Position numbers and translations under genes: made by a program. From Candidatus Poribacteria bacterium (lineage in GTDB: Bacteria; Poribacteria; WGA-4E; WGA-3G), in NCBI GenBank assembly GCA_026710795.1, contig JAPOQK010000012.1:1-64000 (forward strand): a stretch of 64,000 nucleotides of DNA, written 5' to 3'. A model generated the notes under the pieces. It had not been told where the DNA came from, searched no databases, and saw only the letters and a program-made list of their open reading frames with translations. The first letter of the stretch is position 1. Each line of letters starts with the position of its first letter. Shown here one piece after another: positions 48,998 to 55,881 of the stretch.

Positions 48998-50758
48998 TTA
49001 TATCTCCTTTTTTAATGTCTTACGTAATTTTTCTAATGGGTAGGTATTGATGACATCTTCTTTCGTCAAACCACTACGGCGCGCAACATTTACTCCATAC
49101 TTGAAACGTTCTGTATCCGGTACAGAGTGAGCATCTGTGTTTACTGAGATTAACACCCCAGCTGCCTTTGCCATACGGATATATTCTGGTCCCAAATCCA
49201 ACCGACTGGGAGAACCGTTTATCTCCAAAATTGTCCCGTTTTCTGCCGCTGCAGCAATTATTTCTTCAATGTTAATCGGATACATAGGTCGCCTGCCGAG
49301 TAACCTTCCTGTTGGGTGACCAATAATCATTACATACGGATTTTCAATTGCCCGAATCACCCGTTTTGTCATATCAGCTTCAGATAACGTAAATTGGCTA
49401 TGTACACTTGCAACAACGATGTCAAGTTGCGCGAGTATTTCGTCTGGGAAATCAAGCTTGCCATCTCTTCGAATATCCACTTCAGACCCTGCTAAAATTG
49501 TAATGCCTTCGGTTGCTGCATCCACCTCACGTACCTGTTTTATCTGTGCTAACAACCGTTTTTGATCCAATCCATTGGCAACCGCTGAGGAAACTGAATG
49601 ATCTGTAATAGCATAATATTCAAGTTCACGTTTTTTGGCTGCCTCTACCATCTCACTGAGTGTATGTGTCCCATCACTCCAATCAGTGTGTGTATGTAGA
49701 TCCCCTCTCATATCGCTGTATTCTATTAGCTTAGGTAACTTATCGTCCAAGGATAACGCAACGGTATCAGGGTATTGTCGTAGTTCCGGTTCAATATATG
49801 ACATGCCGAACATCTCATAAATATCTCTCTCAGATTTGTTCTGTGTTTCTTCCCAATATTCTGTTTTATCATCTTGCATTTCGAGAGAAATATGTGTGTT
49901 TGCTGAGAAAGCACTGAGATGGTCCTTCGTCGGCGTTGTTAAAAACAAAACTGCCTCGAATTCAGCAGGTGAACATAGATAGATTATCACTGCCAAACCA
50001 TTGTCAACACTTAGATGTATTTTGGTCAATGGTTGTAACAATGGCATAGTAGAAATGTCTTGTGAGTCTATAATTTGGGTTGTAAGTGGTTCGTTATGTG
50101 TTGTGATCGTCTCAATGAGGTTATCATGAGCCGTTTTCGTCCCATCAGCACATTCTACAATAATTTCTATACTACGACAAATCTCTTCTCGCCTACGTAT
50201 ATCCCCTGTAACTTCATGCCGGGTTACTGCGGAACAATTACTGATTATATTAGATAGGTGGTTACTAAGGTCTAAACTTCGTGCCAGAATACGTGCCCCA
50301 CGGTATGTCATTAAGAATTCCAGACTTTTGGTTATGGAGGAAAGGGTCTTTTTCCCAAAGCCTTTTATACCTTCAAGGCTTCCATCTTCAAGTGCCTCAG
50401 ATAGATGTGTCAGATTTTTAATATTGTGATCATTATATAGTCGACTTGCTGTTTTTTCACCAATCCCACTGATTTTCAGTAGGTCAAGTGCTTCTATCCC
50501 TATTTCTGCTAAAAGTTTTTCATAGGCTTGACAGGTACCTGTATCAAGTATTTCTCGTGTCTTTTCCTCAATTGTTTTTCCAATTCCTTCAAGATCTTGA
50601 AATTTACCTTCCTTAATTAATTCACTAACATCAACAGACAAGTCCTCAATTATGTCTGCAGCTTTGTCGTAAGATCTTGTACGGAAATGAGAATCTCCGC
50701 GGATTTTCATCAGATTTCCTATGTTTCTGAAAATGACACTAATTTCTATATTTCTCAT
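48998..50758 (-). CDS. polX: PolX-type protein with PHP domain, degenerate polymerase site
   Basis: 586 residues with the layout of bacterial PolX: helix-hairpin-helix and 8-kDa-like region (about 1-150), polymerase beta-like palm (about 155-300) and PHP domain (about 350-580). The PHP domain is intact (DLHTHTDWSDG with H355 and H357, ITDHS, GHPTGR, NTDAHS). In the palm, the motif normally GSxRRxxExxGDxD reads G185-D-IRRREEICR-S196-I-E198, and the third aspartate (VDLR in relatives) is replaced at I259. All three catalytic aspartates are therefore lost. Expected to be a PHP-type 3'-5' exonuclease or AP endonuclease, not a polymerase (inference). Confidence 0.88.
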   Translation of the reverse strand: MRNIEISVIFRNIGNLMKIRGDSHFRTRSYDKAADIIEDLSVDVSELIKEGKFQDLEGIGKTIEEKTREILDTGTCQAYEKLLAEIGIEALDLLKISGIGEKTASRLYNDHNIKNLTHLSEALEDGSLEGIKGFGKKTLSSITKSLEFLMTYRGARILARSLDLSNHLSNIISNCSAVTRHEVTGDIRRREEICRSIEIIVECADGTKTAHDNLIETITTHNEPLTTQIIDSQDISTMPLLQPLTKIHLSVDNGLAVIIYLCSPAEFEAVLFLTTPTKDHLSAFSANTHISLEMQDDKTEYWEETQNKSERDIYEMFGMSYIEPELRQYPDTVALSLDDKLPKLIEYSDMRGDLHTHTDWSDGTHTLSEMVEAAKKRELEYYAITDHSVSSAVANGLDQKRLLAQIKQVREVDAATEGITILAGSEVDIRRDGKLDFPDEILAQLDIVVASVHSQFTLSEADMTKRVIRAIENPYVMIIGHPTGRLLGRRPMYPINIEEIIAAAAENGTILEINGSPSRLDLGPEYIRMAKAAGVLISVNTDAHSVPDTERFKYGVNVARRSGLTKEDVINTYPLEKLRKTLKKEI

Positions 50759-50905: not shown

Positions 50906-51781
50906 CTATATTGATACCATTTTCTTGTGGGTTTTAGCATACCTTTTATATGCTGATACACCCGATACCATACCTATAATAATACTCGCAGAAACAACAG
51001 CGATGAGTTGATACCACGGAAGGAACTCAAGAACTCCCAGTTGGAAAGTAAACAGACAGTAGAGTATGTAGAAACAGCCTAACCCGAATAATGTTCCGAA
51101 GAATCCCAGAAATATGCCTTGTATGATAAAGGGAGTACGGAGATATCCTCGCGTAGCACCAATATTATTTAGTAGTTGTATTTCTTTATGTCGGGTTCTA
51201 CCAGTTTTCAAGACTGATGCACGGATAAGTAACAATGAAATCAATACCGTAATTACGATACTTGCAACAGTCATACGGTACGTCTGATGATATATGTCTG
51301 TGAGAATACCATGTCCTGTCAAGACAACATCATCTATCATTTCATCGGATTCAATATCATAGGCGATTTCTTCAAGTGTTTTTCTTGATAAATTTGATGT
51401 CTTAAAATAAATCTCTAAGGAAGCGGGAAAAGGATTGCTACCGGAATATCCATTCTTAATTAAAGCTCCAAGTGCTCCAAACTGTTTTTCAGCACGGTTT
51501 AGGTGTTCATCCTTAGAAATGTATTCAATATAATAGATATTATCATTCTTCCTGATTTGATCTGCAAAAACCTTAGCATCTTCTTCAGCAACTGAATCGT
51601 TTGCATAAGCAATGAGCGGCGCAACAGTTTTTCTAAGTGATAATTCTTCATAGAGAGAATTGTGATTAAATAGAAATGTATTTAGGATTAATGTGAACAA
51701 AGCAAGCGCGATGATGCTAAAGAGATTATGTAATCCGGTTTGTGATATTTGAACAAAGGCATTTTGTATATAATATCGCAT
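50906..51781 (-). CDS. ftsX: Cell-division protein FtsX
   Basis: A 291-residue four-helix FtsX. The first membrane segment is at about 18-40 (HNLFSIIALALFTLILNTFL), the extracytoplasmic domain spans about 45-165 with NPFPASLEIYF, and three further segments lie at about 170-190, 215-240 and 255-280. FtsX couples FtsE in the cytoplasm to periplasmic activators of peptidoglycan hydrolases. It follows ftsE by 77 bp. No ribosome binding site is evident. Sequence is otherwise typical, including KEIQLLNNIGATRGYLRTPF. Confidence 0.9.
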   Translation of the reverse strand: MRYYIQNAFVQISQTGLHNLFSIIALALFTLILNTFLFNHNSLYEELSLRKTVAPLIAYANDSVAEEDAKVFADQIRKNDNIYYIEYISKDEHLNRAEKQFGALGALIKNGYSGSNPFPASLEIYFKTSNLSRKTLEEIAYDIESDEMIDDVVLTGHGILTDIYHQTYRMTVASIVITVLISLLLIRASVLKTGRTRHKEIQLLNNIGATRGYLRTPFIIQGIFLGFFGTLFGLGCFYILYCLFTFQLGVLEFLPWYQLIAVVSASIIIGMVSGVSAYKRYAKTHKKMVSI

Positions 51782-51858: not shown

Positions 51859-52530
51859 TTAGGCTGTAATACAGCCATCTTTGAGAGTAAAGACGCGTTT
51901 TGGTGCAGTATTATTAGTACGCATAAACCTTTCTGGAAGTTCAGGATCGGATGTTGCAACTAAAACAGTAGTGCCTTGAAAATTGAGCGTATCAAAAAGC
52001 GTAAGCATTTCAAGTGTAAGATTTGGATCAAGAGTTTCTGTGGGTTGGTCTGCTATTATTAGCAAAGGACTATTGATAATTGCCCTTGCAATTGCAAGTC
52101 GGTGTCGTTCATTGCTGGATATTTGACTTGGCTTAGATAGTTTATGATGGATTAACCCCATTTGATGTAATAGATTATCTACATTTTCATGTAATATCCT
52201 TATTTTTGTTCCGATGAGTTTCTGAGGAATTGCCAAGTTTTGTTCAACGGTTTTGGTATCAACAAGGTTGCAATCTTGAAATACTATACCTATTTTTCGT
52301 CTGAAAAATGGCAGTGTAGATGGGGTAAGATCTGCAAGTGACTGACCGAGTACATTTAAGGAACCCGATGAAGGTATTAATGCACCGTAAATCATTTTGA
52401 GTAGCGTTGTTTTGCCTGCCCCGCTTTCACCAACGAGGAATCCGTATTCACCGCGTTCAAGACGAAAACTCGCTCTTTCCAGTACACTTAAATTATTATA
52501 ACTGAAACTTACTTGATGAAGTTGAATCAT
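51859..52530 (-). CDS. ftsE: FtsE-like ATP-binding protein with altered catalytic residues
   Basis: 223 residues of the FtsE/MacB-type ABC ATPase group. Walker A GESGAGKT (34-41) and the Q-loop FQDCNL are normal. The signature motif, LSGGE in relatives, reads ISSNE (137-141). Walker B ends ADQPT, so the catalytic glutamate is Q162. The switch histidine (ATHD in relatives) is S194 in VLVATSDPE. The D-loop ETLD is kept. By these residues it can bind ATP but probably hydrolyses it poorly. It sits between topA (66 bp upstream) and ftsX. Confidence 0.88.
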   Translation of the reverse strand: MIQLHQVSFSYNNLSVLERASFRLERGEYGFLVGESGAGKTTLLKMIYGALIPSSGSLNVLGQSLADLTPSTLPFFRRKIGIVFQDCNLVDTKTVEQNLAIPQKLIGTKIRILHENVDNLLHQMGLIHHKLSKPSQISSNERHRLAIARAIINSPLLIIADQPTETLDPNLTLEMLTLFDTLNFQGTTVLVATSDPELPERFMRTNNTAPKRVFTLKDGCITA

Positions 52531-52596: not shown

Positions 52597-54873
52597 CTAC
52601 TGAGGCGTATTCGTGTAATCACAGGATTTTGATGCACAAGCGTGTATTGGATCACCCGTTTTTTGCGTCTTTTCAACGATATATGGAGCATTACATTTTG
52701 GACACGGTTCAGCAATCGGTTTATCCCAACTTGCAAACCCACAAGTAGGATAGTTGCTGCACCCGTAGAAAACCTTACCCCTCTTACTTCGACGTTCACC
52801 TAAGTATCCATCACAATCCGGTTCCGGACAATCAACTCCCATGGGAATAGGTTTTGCATTTTTGCACTTTGGATAACCGCTACATGCCATGAAGCGTGCA
52901 CCAGCACGACTCTGCTTAATCAGCATCACTTCACCACATTTATCACAGAGCGTATCTGTTTCTTCTGGTTCAGCGGCAGTGGAATCATCACCGTTCAACG
53001 CCTTTATATTTTGACATTCTGGATAGTTGGAACAACCAAGAAATCGACCATATTTTCCCCATTTTATAATCATATTTCCACCGCACTTTTCGCACTTCTC
53101 ATCTGATTCTGTTTCCATTGCTTTCCGTGCTTCATACATCTTGTCAGGTGCTTCTTTCAGTGCATCTTGAAATGAGGGGTAAAATTCTCCGAGTGTGTCT
53201 ACCCAACTTGCTTTCCCTTCTGCAATTGTATCAAGTTTCAGTTCCATATCTTTCGTAAATTCTACATCAACTATGTCTGGAAAACCGTGTATCAATAGTT
53301 CGTTAACAAGTCTACCGACATCCGTGGGAATTAGTCTTCGCTGCTCTTTTACAATGTATTCTCTTTCTTGAATAGTTGAAAGAATTGCTGCATAAGTACT
53401 CGGTCTACCGATCTCTTTGGCTTCTAATGCTTTGACAAGGGTTGCTTCATTATATCGGGGTGGTGGCTGTGTAAAGTGTTGTTTCGGTTCCAATTTACGT
53501 AATTCCAGCACATCACCTTCGTTGACATTCGGTAAATTTACATTTTCATCACTACCGTTGTTTTCGTTGGCGTTAACATCATCTTGTCCTTCCATATATA
53601 CGCGTCTGAAACCATCGAACTTAATTACAGAACCTGTCGCTCGGAAGAGATATTTACCAGCTTCAATGTCAATCGTGGTAGCATCTAAAATTGCGGGATT
53701 CATTTGACTTGCTAAGAATCGTTTCCAGATTAAATCGTAGAGGCGGAACTGGTCATTGCTGAGAAATGGTTTTAGTGTTTCAGGAGGTCGGAGATTTAAT
53801 GTGGGTCGAATTGCTTCATGTGCATCTTGTGCTCCCTTTTTACTTTTGTAATTTATCGCACGCGTAGGCATGTAGTCTGAACCGTATTTGGATTTAATAT
53901 ATTTACGCGCGGCAGTGAGAGCATCCTGTGCAATCCTTGTTGAATCGGTACGCATGTAAGTAATCAGACCAACAGATCCCTCGTCTCCGATATTAAGCCC
54001 CTCGTATAATTGCTGTGCAATAACCATTGTCTTTTTTGCTGTATAACGAAGTTTACGAGATGCTTCCTGTTGTAGAGTGCTTGTAATAAATGGTGGAACT
54101 GGCTTTTGTTTTCGTTCCCGTTTTTGCACTTTTGTTACGATGTAATTCTGTTGTTTGGCATCTTCTGTGATTTCATTTGCGCGTTCTTCATCAATACGGA
54201 ATCCGTAATTATTGATTTCTCCCTTCTTAGACGCTATCTTATGTAATTTGGCAGGAAACAGATGTTCTTTAGGTGTAGGTGTCAAAGTTGCATTGATAGA
54301 CCAGTATTCTTCCGGATTGAATGCTTCAATCTCCGCTTCACGTTCACAGATTAATCGAACAGCAACAGATTGCACCCTTCCTGCACTTAAACCAGGTTTA
54401 ACACTACTCCATAAAATGGGACTGATCTTCCATCCAATAAGTCTATCTAATACACGCCGTGCTTGCTGGGCATCAACAAGTGCTTGGTCAATTGTTCCGG
54501 GATTTTGAATCGCTTCTAAAATTGCGCTTTGTGTTACTTCGTTGTATACAATGCGATATATAGGTTTCTTTATTTTTTTCAATTCGGTCGCAAGATGCCA
54601 ACATATTGCTTCGCCTTCTCTGTCAGGATCTGCGGCAAGAAAGATACAATCAACCTTTTTTGCTTTTTCTTGTATCTCCTTAACAACCGATCCTTTACCA
54701 CGAATCATCACATATTTTGGAGTGAAGTTGTTATCAACATCAACACCAAGTTCTCTTTTTGGTAGATCGCGAATATGTCCAACGGAGGAGTCAACAATAT
54801 AGTCTTTTCCCAATATTTTTTCTATAGTTCTTGCTTTGGCTGGTGATTCAACTACTACTAATGATTTCGACAT
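52597..54873 (-). CDS. topA: DNA topoisomerase I
   Basis: A 758-residue type IA topoisomerase that relaxes negative supercoils. The Toprim domain begins SLVVVESPAKARTIEKILG and carries FLAADPDREGEAICWHL (79-95); the active-site tyrosine is Y306 in LITYMRTDSTR. The C-terminus has four zinc-ribbon modules, each with paired cysteines: CEKCGG..CSNYPEC, CDKCGE..CSGYPKC, CPEPDC..CSNYPTC and CPKCNA..CASKSC. AAGGAA lies upstream of the ATG. Length and domain order are normal. It lies between accD and ftsE on the same strand. Confidence 0.96.
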   Translation of the reverse strand: MSKSLVVVESPAKARTIEKILGKDYIVDSSVGHIRDLPKRELGVDVDNNFTPKYVMIRGKGSVVKEIQEKAKKVDCIFLAADPDREGEAICWHLATELKKIKKPIYRIVYNEVTQSAILEAIQNPGTIDQALVDAQQARRVLDRLIGWKISPILWSSVKPGLSAGRVQSVAVRLICEREAEIEAFNPEEYWSINATLTPTPKEHLFPAKLHKIASKKGEINNYGFRIDEERANEITEDAKQQNYIVTKVQKRERKQKPVPPFITSTLQQEASRKLRYTAKKTMVIAQQLYEGLNIGDEGSVGLITYMRTDSTRIAQDALTAARKYIKSKYGSDYMPTRAINYKSKKGAQDAHEAIRPTLNLRPPETLKPFLSNDQFRLYDLIWKRFLASQMNPAILDATTIDIEAGKYLFRATGSVIKFDGFRRVYMEGQDDVNANENNGSDENVNLPNVNEGDVLELRKLEPKQHFTQPPPRYNEATLVKALEAKEIGRPSTYAAILSTIQEREYIVKEQRRLIPTDVGRLVNELLIHGFPDIVDVEFTKDMELKLDTIAEGKASWVDTLGEFYPSFQDALKEAPDKMYEARKAMETESDEKCEKCGGNMIIKWGKYGRFLGCSNYPECQNIKALNGDDSTAAEPEETDTLCDKCGEVMLIKQSRAGARFMACSGYPKCKNAKPIPMGVDCPEPDCDGYLGERRSKRGKVFYGCSNYPTCGFASWDKPIAEPCPKCNAPYIVEKTQKTGDPIHACASKSCDYTNTPQ

Positions 54874-55107: not shown

Positions 55108-55881
55108 TTAATAAGCAAATGAAATTAGGTCACTTAATAACTGCCGCATACCTTTACGGTGAACGATGTGGTCAATGAATCCATAGGCAACCAATGATTC
55201 TGCTTTTTGAAAGTTCTCTGGTAGTTCTTCCTGTAAACTCGCGACTGCTAATGGACCAGCAAACCCTATTCTTGCCCCCGGTTCAGCAACAATCACATCC
55301 CCAAGTGAACTATAACTTGCAGTCGCACCACCAAAAGTTGGATCAGTCATGACCGAAATATAAAAACCACCTTTTTTGGCGTATTCAGTGCATGCCGCAG
55401 CAGTTTTTGCCATCTGCATGAGTGCTAAAGTGCCTTCTTGCATACGCATGCCACCACTAACAGATACGATAATAAGTGGCAATTGGGTTTCACATGCATG
55501 CTCAATGCATCGGGTTACCTTTTCACCGATCACAGCACCACAAGTACCACCAATAAAACCTACATCTCCAATTGCAATGGCAACCTGATTACCACCAATG
55601 TTCGCAGTACCTGTAAGCATCTCAGAACGTAGTCCAGTTTTTGCAATGTCACGTTCAAGTTTATCTGGATATTCTGGAAATTCTAATGCATCAATAGAAT
55701 AAAGATTGGTATCAGTTTCTTCAAAACTATCTGCGTCGACGAGTAGATTAAGCCGTTCATGAGCACTCATTGGATAATGTGCATCACAAGCAGGACAAAT
55801 CTTTAGGTTTTGTGTTAATGCTTCAATTTCAATGTCCGTGGTGCAAAATCTACAGGTGAAGGTTTTAGGAGTATTATCCAT
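55108..55881 (-). CDS. accD: Acetyl-CoA carboxylase carboxyltransferase subunit beta
   Basis: A 257-residue AccD, the zinc-containing beta subunit that passes the carboxyl group from biotin to acetyl-CoA in fatty acid synthesis. The zinc ribbon uses C10, C13, C29 and C32. The crotonase-like core carries IGDVGFIGGTCGAVIGEKVT, VSVSGGMRMQEGTLALMQMA and MTDPTFGGATASYSSLGDVI. It is somewhat shorter than E. coli AccD (about 300) at both ends. The alpha subunit accA is not nearby. No strong ribosome binding site. Confidence 0.95.
   Translation of the reverse strand: MDNTPKTFTCRFCTTDIEIEALTQNLKICPACDAHYPMSAHERLNLLVDADSFEETDTNLYSIDALEFPEYPDKLERDIAKTGLRSEMLTGTANIGGNQVAIAIGDVGFIGGTCGAVIGEKVTRCIEHACETQLPLIIVSVSGGMRMQEGTLALMQMAKTAAACTEYAKKGGFYISVMTDPTFGGATASYSSLGDVIVAEPGARIGFAGPLAVASLQEELPENFQKAESLVAYGFIDHIVHRKGMRQLLSDLISFAY

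Follow-up and report, generated by a model that had tools for sequence, protein, structure and literature searches.

In this study, we analysed the ftsEX locus on a stretch of 64,000 nucleotides, the whole of which is called the window below. The genome that carries the locus comprises 4.7 Mb and is 94% complete, and its relatives were deposited as Candidatus Poribacteria. Isolate names, together with the published description of the Entoporibacteria (PMC8546597), suggest that the family of the window represents these sponge-associated bacteria.

The ftsEX locus and its products

The genes accD, topA, ftsE, ftsX and a polX-like gene follow one another in this order on the minus strand (Table 1), and the order accD-topA-ftsE-ftsX is also found in the canonical genome G037. 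The adjacency of topA and ftsE is common to several canonical relatives, which supports the orthology of FtsE.

Table 1. Genes and FtsE sequence features of the locus in window coordinates.
Feature	Position	Strand	Description	Assigned from
accD	55108..55881	minus	upstream neighbour, beyond topA	
topA	52597..54873	minus	upstream neighbour of ftsE	
ftsE	51859..52530	minus	223 aa; FtsE ortholog with degenerate catalytic site	TIGR02673, synteny, tree
Walker A GESGAGKTT (residues 34-42)	52405..52431	minus	intact	
Signature ISSNE (residues 137-141)	52108..52122	minus	second Gly replaced by Asn	
Q162 codon (ADQPT)	52045..52047	minus	position of the catalytic glutamate	
S194 codon (ATSDP)	51949..51951	minus	position of the switch histidine	
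ftsX	50906..51781	minus	291 aa; extracellular and permease domains; intact	Pfam, structure model
polX-like gene	48998..50758	minus	downstream of ftsX in the family	sequence (polymerase-X/PHP-like)

Among the relatives, the surroundings of these genes show some variation. In g8 genomes of family f4 (L111, L113, L121, L122 and L123, with L112 and L114 as comparison), ftsX is separated from ftsE and adjoins a gene resembling MoxR-type AAA ATPases (324 aa), while ftsE still lies next to topA and FtsE is canonical. The topA of G037 (f4; L125) is of the more distant subtype found in f3, with 46-47% identity to that of the window (compare G025 L116 and G028 L119), and the topA of the remaining f4 genomes, such as G032 (L112), reaches 65-67%; judging from these identities, the odd subtype in G037 suggests a replacement or transfer.

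The FtsE of the window is an ortholog of ordinary FtsE, as synteny and the tree show, and the same two lines of evidence ruled out an identity as a LolD or MacB ATPase. Its top NCBIfam match is TIGR02673 (FtsE), with 215.1 bits versus 139 for the next model; this score lies below the curated cut-off of 264.85 bits, and other family members scored 213-246. Its structure was modelled with confidence (pLDDT 92), and the top structural matches are FtsE. A preliminary description had reported a glutamine at position 162, a serine at position 194 and the signature ISSNE, with Walker A and the D-loop kept, and reading of the sequence found all of these as claimed. The protein retains Q85 in the Q-loop, the aspartate D161 in Walker B and LD (167-168) in the D-loop, and it has neither the catalytic glutamate nor the switch histidine nor an LSGG(E/Q) signature. 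Q162 aligns with the catalytic glutamate of solved FtsE chains. The engineered P. aeruginosa FtsE E163Q (8i6r) reads LLLADQPT where the wild type (8i6o) reads LLLADEPT, and LLLADQPT occurs naturally in several FtsE sequences of genus g1.

FtsX, which had been described as normal in appearance, is indeed so: Pfam identified both PF18075 (FtsX_ECD) and PF02687 (FtsX), and the confident structure model matches solved FtsX structures, among them 6tpi, the periplasmic domain in its EnvC-bound form. Within the family, the extracellular domain shows a mean identity of 64%. Residues 165-215 form the only stretch less conserved in the family than in the canonical group; within residues 188-198, which are cytoplasmic and a likely contact with FtsE, F188 is changed to S or A, L192 is changed to K or R, and R198 is variable.

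Catalytic residues and selection across the family

We read 50 distinct FtsE sequences from four genera of the window's family and a further 20 from non-members, of which 18 belong to other Poribacteria families and two to near relatives under other phylum names. Alignment of these relatives showed the three-part change to be conserved throughout the clade: all 50 family sequences combine loss of the glutamate (to Q, A or G), loss of the switch histidine (to S, A or T) and conversion of SGG to SxN. The glutamate position is occupied by Ala in 33, Gln in 16 and Gly in one, and the histidine position by Ser in 27, Ala in 12 and Thr in 11. The second signature glycine is Asn (N140) in every family member; S138 is likewise invariant, and the position of the first signature glycine varies among G, S, N, C, F, Y, M and D. 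Outside the family, glutamate, histidine and signature are intact in 20 of 20 sequences. In an even sample of Pseudomonadota, all 110 FtsE-level matches have the glutamate and the histidine, and loss of the second signature glycine was seen in none of them. When the columns of the catalytic changes were left out of the tree, the dead forms made up one side of a branch with a support of 100, so that the loss of all three features is consistent with a single event at the base of the family.

Every residue checked for binding of Mg-ATP was retained. S36, K40, T41 and T42 are invariant among the 50 sequences, as are Y11, Q85, S138 and D161; taken as a set, Y11, S36, K40, Q85, S138, E141 and D161 are conserved in at least 95%, most of them in 100%. 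With the catalytic base, the switch histidine and the second signature glycine lost and the Mg-ATP residues kept, the protein should bind nucleotide and should not hydrolyse it productively. The view of FtsE as an apparently inactive ATPase is well supported, and the loss of ATP hydrolysis in the family is strongly predicted from the sequences. It is unlikely that slow hydrolysis persists by means of some other residue, or of a dyad-like arrangement, that stands in for the glutamate and the histidine. Some ABC proteins do retain low activity without the canonical glutamate, and the invariance of Walker A, Q-loop and Walker B aspartate would suit such a protein; against this, base, histidine and signature are all altered together, and no fixed acidic substitute occurs at position 162 (Q, A, G) or 194 (S, A, T).

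For the dead FtsE, the median pairwise dN/dS is about 0.06 (20 unsaturated g1 pairs, and 126 pairs in a second family set), compared with 0.03 for canonical FtsE relatives (15 pairs) and 0.13 for g1 ftsX. FtsE of the family is 49-50% identical to that of either sister family, and the sister families are 73% identical to each other; for AccD, identities are 60-63% in all three comparisons. By these sequence identities, the divergence of FtsE is concentrated on the family stem, where FtsE is accelerated and AccD is not.

These data also bear on whether the ftsE locus is being lost and survives as a pseudogene-like remnant, or whether it is an artefact of the assembly. Losses of ftsEX do occur, in f2 and in G026, and an FtsE-type top match is absent from five family genomes (G007, G010, G050, G051 and G058). 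The absence in G007 and G010 is likely an assembly gap, since topA is absent there too. Yet 50 distinct intact sequences share the three-part loss, the dN/dS of about 0.06 and the kept ATP-binding residues contradict decay, and we consider this the most improbable of the readings weighed here. An assembly error or a quirk of a single genome was ruled out by the number of distinct sequences sharing the changes, several of which come from single-contig genomes. The earlier statement that the locus is not decaying is borne out by the clade-wide distribution and single origin of the changes, by purifying selection with invariant ATP-binding residues, and by an intact ftsX.

EnvC, amidases, FtsA and the search for a second FtsE

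EnvC is the activator controlled by FtsEX in Gram-negatives. A search for M23 proteins found fewer in the family than outside, and the kind missing from the family is EnvC-like: its N-terminal part resembles a coiled coil and abounds in E, K, R, Q, L and A, and its C-terminal LytM domain lacks the zinc motif HxH. A profile made from 12 relatives aligns over the length of solved E. coli EnvC (E 2.7e-37) and also matches the EnvC of V. cholerae (6e-36); three single EnvC-like sequences that were tested lie below the curated NCBIfam EnvC cut-off. Among 85 genomes of the phylum searched with this profile, 22 of the 26 non-family genomes gave a full-length match, whereas the 59 family genomes gave none. 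In the latter, even a profile from 12 relatives matched the generic M23 domain alone, on which ground an EnvC hidden by divergence was rejected. The Fisher value for EnvC versus family membership is 1e-16, a value that takes no account of common descent and should not be counted as independent evidence, and the correlation rests on few independent events. The four non-family genomes without full-length EnvC are G024, G027 (both f2), G026 and G043; in G043 a fragment lies close to the edge of a contig. G024, G027 and G026 (L155, L153 and L156) are devoid of ftsE, ftsX and EnvC with topA present, an apparent wholesale loss of the FtsEX-EnvC branch. In the FtsA tree, f1, f2 and G026 are not joined, which suggests separate losses, the tree being weakly resolved.

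In 11 canonical genomes, short amidases of 263-297 aa, which equal E. coli AmiA in size, group into one ortholog cluster, and none of that size from the family was found among the matches listed. The family retains a LysM-M23 protein with intact HxH as well as longer amidases. Taken together, the missing EnvC and, among the matches listed, the missing short amidase lead us to infer that the branch from FtsEX to the amidases was dismantled.

It had been proposed that another ATPase might substitute for FtsE, and this received no support. The genome of the window has 59 ABC_tran matches, the next-closest of which are 29-36% identical to FtsE and have canonical motifs; on the FtsE model they score no higher than LolD-type ATPases from genomes with canonical FtsE. 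Similarity and FtsE-model searches found no second canonical FtsE in this genome, and the FtsE-model search gave no match above the curated cut-off in any family genome. FtsX_ECD proteins number at most one per genome in the 40 relatives searched. The same results make it highly improbable that FtsE forms a heterodimer with another, active NBD and so retains one working site. Asymmetric NBD pairs are known among ABC exporters (PMC7756269), but ftsE is the only NBD gene beside ftsX, and the other NBDs of the genome are as distant as stated above.

In E. coli, ATPase-dead FtsEX blocks septal synthesis through FtsA, and it rescues ftsEX phenotypes if FtsA is unblockable and NlpD is present (PMC7343993). 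FtsA scored above the cut-off in every family genome among 40 searched, except for the 73%-complete G010, which rules out its absence as an escape from inhibition by FtsEX. The E. coli block therefore counts against our preferred explanation, that of a non-cycling FtsEX. A change at G366 of FtsA uncouples FtsEX in E. coli; an altered G366 was also ruled out, as the aligned glycine is kept (position counted along chain 7q6d, which we take to be E. coli FtsA). The phosphate-binding loop of FtsA (L340-L349, L358, L359) reads GDQTT in g1, GDGTT in g2 and g3, and GGGTT in g4 and in canonical relatives within the order. The stem branch of the family FtsA is long, at 0.67 changes per column. From the long stem and the altered loop one might speculate that FtsA adapted to a non-cycling FtsEX.

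A proposed non-cycling FtsEX and its relation to known systems

The role of FtsEX beyond hydrolase activation, and the need for hydrolysis, are debated and differ among model species. We somewhat favour the explanation that FtsE of the family is a conserved pseudo-ATPase, that the EnvC-amidase branch was dismantled, and that FtsEX was kept as a non-cycling, nucleotide-binding complex of the divisome. First, FtsE would bind Mg-ATP through its kept residues with no productive hydrolysis. Second, the FtsEX-to-amidase branch, in which ATP cycling matters, would have been dismantled, and FtsEX would be under purifying selection for another function. Third, FtsZ, FtsA or later proteins would keep FtsEX in the divisome, where it would serve as a scaffold that does not cycle, either nucleotide-bound or nucleotide-gated, and cell separation would depend on the LysM-M23 protein that the family has kept and on its longer amidases, in a route corresponding to the NlpD branch. 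Loss of EnvC may have come first and made hydrolysis less necessary; alternatively, the loss of FtsE catalysis may have preceded it. In E. coli, the Z-ring still assembles in ftsE mutants whose ATP binding and hydrolysis are impaired (PMC5607218).

The preliminary description had suggested that a binding-only FtsE might work as a static switch. The loss of EnvC, and probably of its short amidase, calls for a revision in which FtsEX more likely acts as a scaffold of the divisome, or as a signalling complex that has been retuned, than as a static amidase switch. The conservation of the extracellular domain of FtsX would fit a periplasmic partner that has been kept just as well as a scaffold, and in this respect counts against the explanation we favour. 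FtsEX could still be a true switch, working by ATP binding and release alone on a new periplasmic hydrolase or synthase in place of EnvC, although we regard this as a minority possibility. The strongly conserved extracellular domain and the kept ATP-binding residues would suit it, and ATP binding alone suffices for the activation of EnvC-AmiB via FtsEX in E. coli and P. aeruginosa (PMC11139282). However, no candidate partner gene adjoins ftsEX, and with glutamate, histidine and signature changed the reset would hang on slow ATP release. Elsewhere, M. tuberculosis FtsEX needs hydrolysis, and V. cholerae FtsEX was reported to be nucleotide-independent (PMC11139282, PMC10694151).

The conserved, apparently dead FtsE and the lack of EnvC together make this a real and uncommon version of a familiar system, and the job of FtsE in the division of this family has probably changed. 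To our knowledge, FtsE has been treated as catalytic wherever it was studied, and no natural ATPase-dead FtsE was found in the literature searched, with its little coverage of subscription journals. The family represents an apparent evolutionary separation of function, in which the hydrolysis residues and EnvC are gone and FtsE and FtsX are kept under selection; the case suggests that an ABC ATPase can turn into a stable pseudo-ATPase. We give about even chances to the broader proposition that the family divides with a non-hydrolysing FtsEX and no EnvC, so that FtsEX would have a selected role without ATP cycling or amidase activation, the ABC fold serving as a fixed structural element.

Compared with FtsE of 8hd0 (E. 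coli), 8i6o (P. aeruginosa), 8tzj (V. cholerae) and 6z63 (S. pneumoniae), the FtsE of the window has the same fold at 35-39% identity and shares Walker A, Q-loop, Walker B aspartate and the pairing with ftsX, but differs in having no catalytic glutamate, switch histidine or second signature glycine. The engineered traps E163Q (E. coli, P. aeruginosa) and E165Q (M. tuberculosis) share with genus g1 both the position and the Glu-to-Gln exchange, and FtsE E163Q binds ATP without hydrolysing it (PMC11139282). Unlike these traps, the change in the family is natural and fixed in the clade, is accompanied by loss of the switch histidine and a changed signature, and in genera other than g1 replaces Glu with Ala or Gly. 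With regard to the FtsEX-EnvC-amidase pathway, most other Poribacteria families have canonical FtsE and a full-length EnvC-like protein, and many have an AmiA-size amidase; in contrast, FtsE of the family has lost its catalytic residues, EnvC was not found, and no short amidase occurs among the matches listed. Finally, degenerate sites of heterodimeric ABC exporters have lost the catalytic glutamate and changed the signature, as has FtsE of the family. Unlike those exporters, solved FtsEX contains two copies of FtsE and the only FtsE of the family is degenerate, so that both sites of a homodimer would be degenerate.
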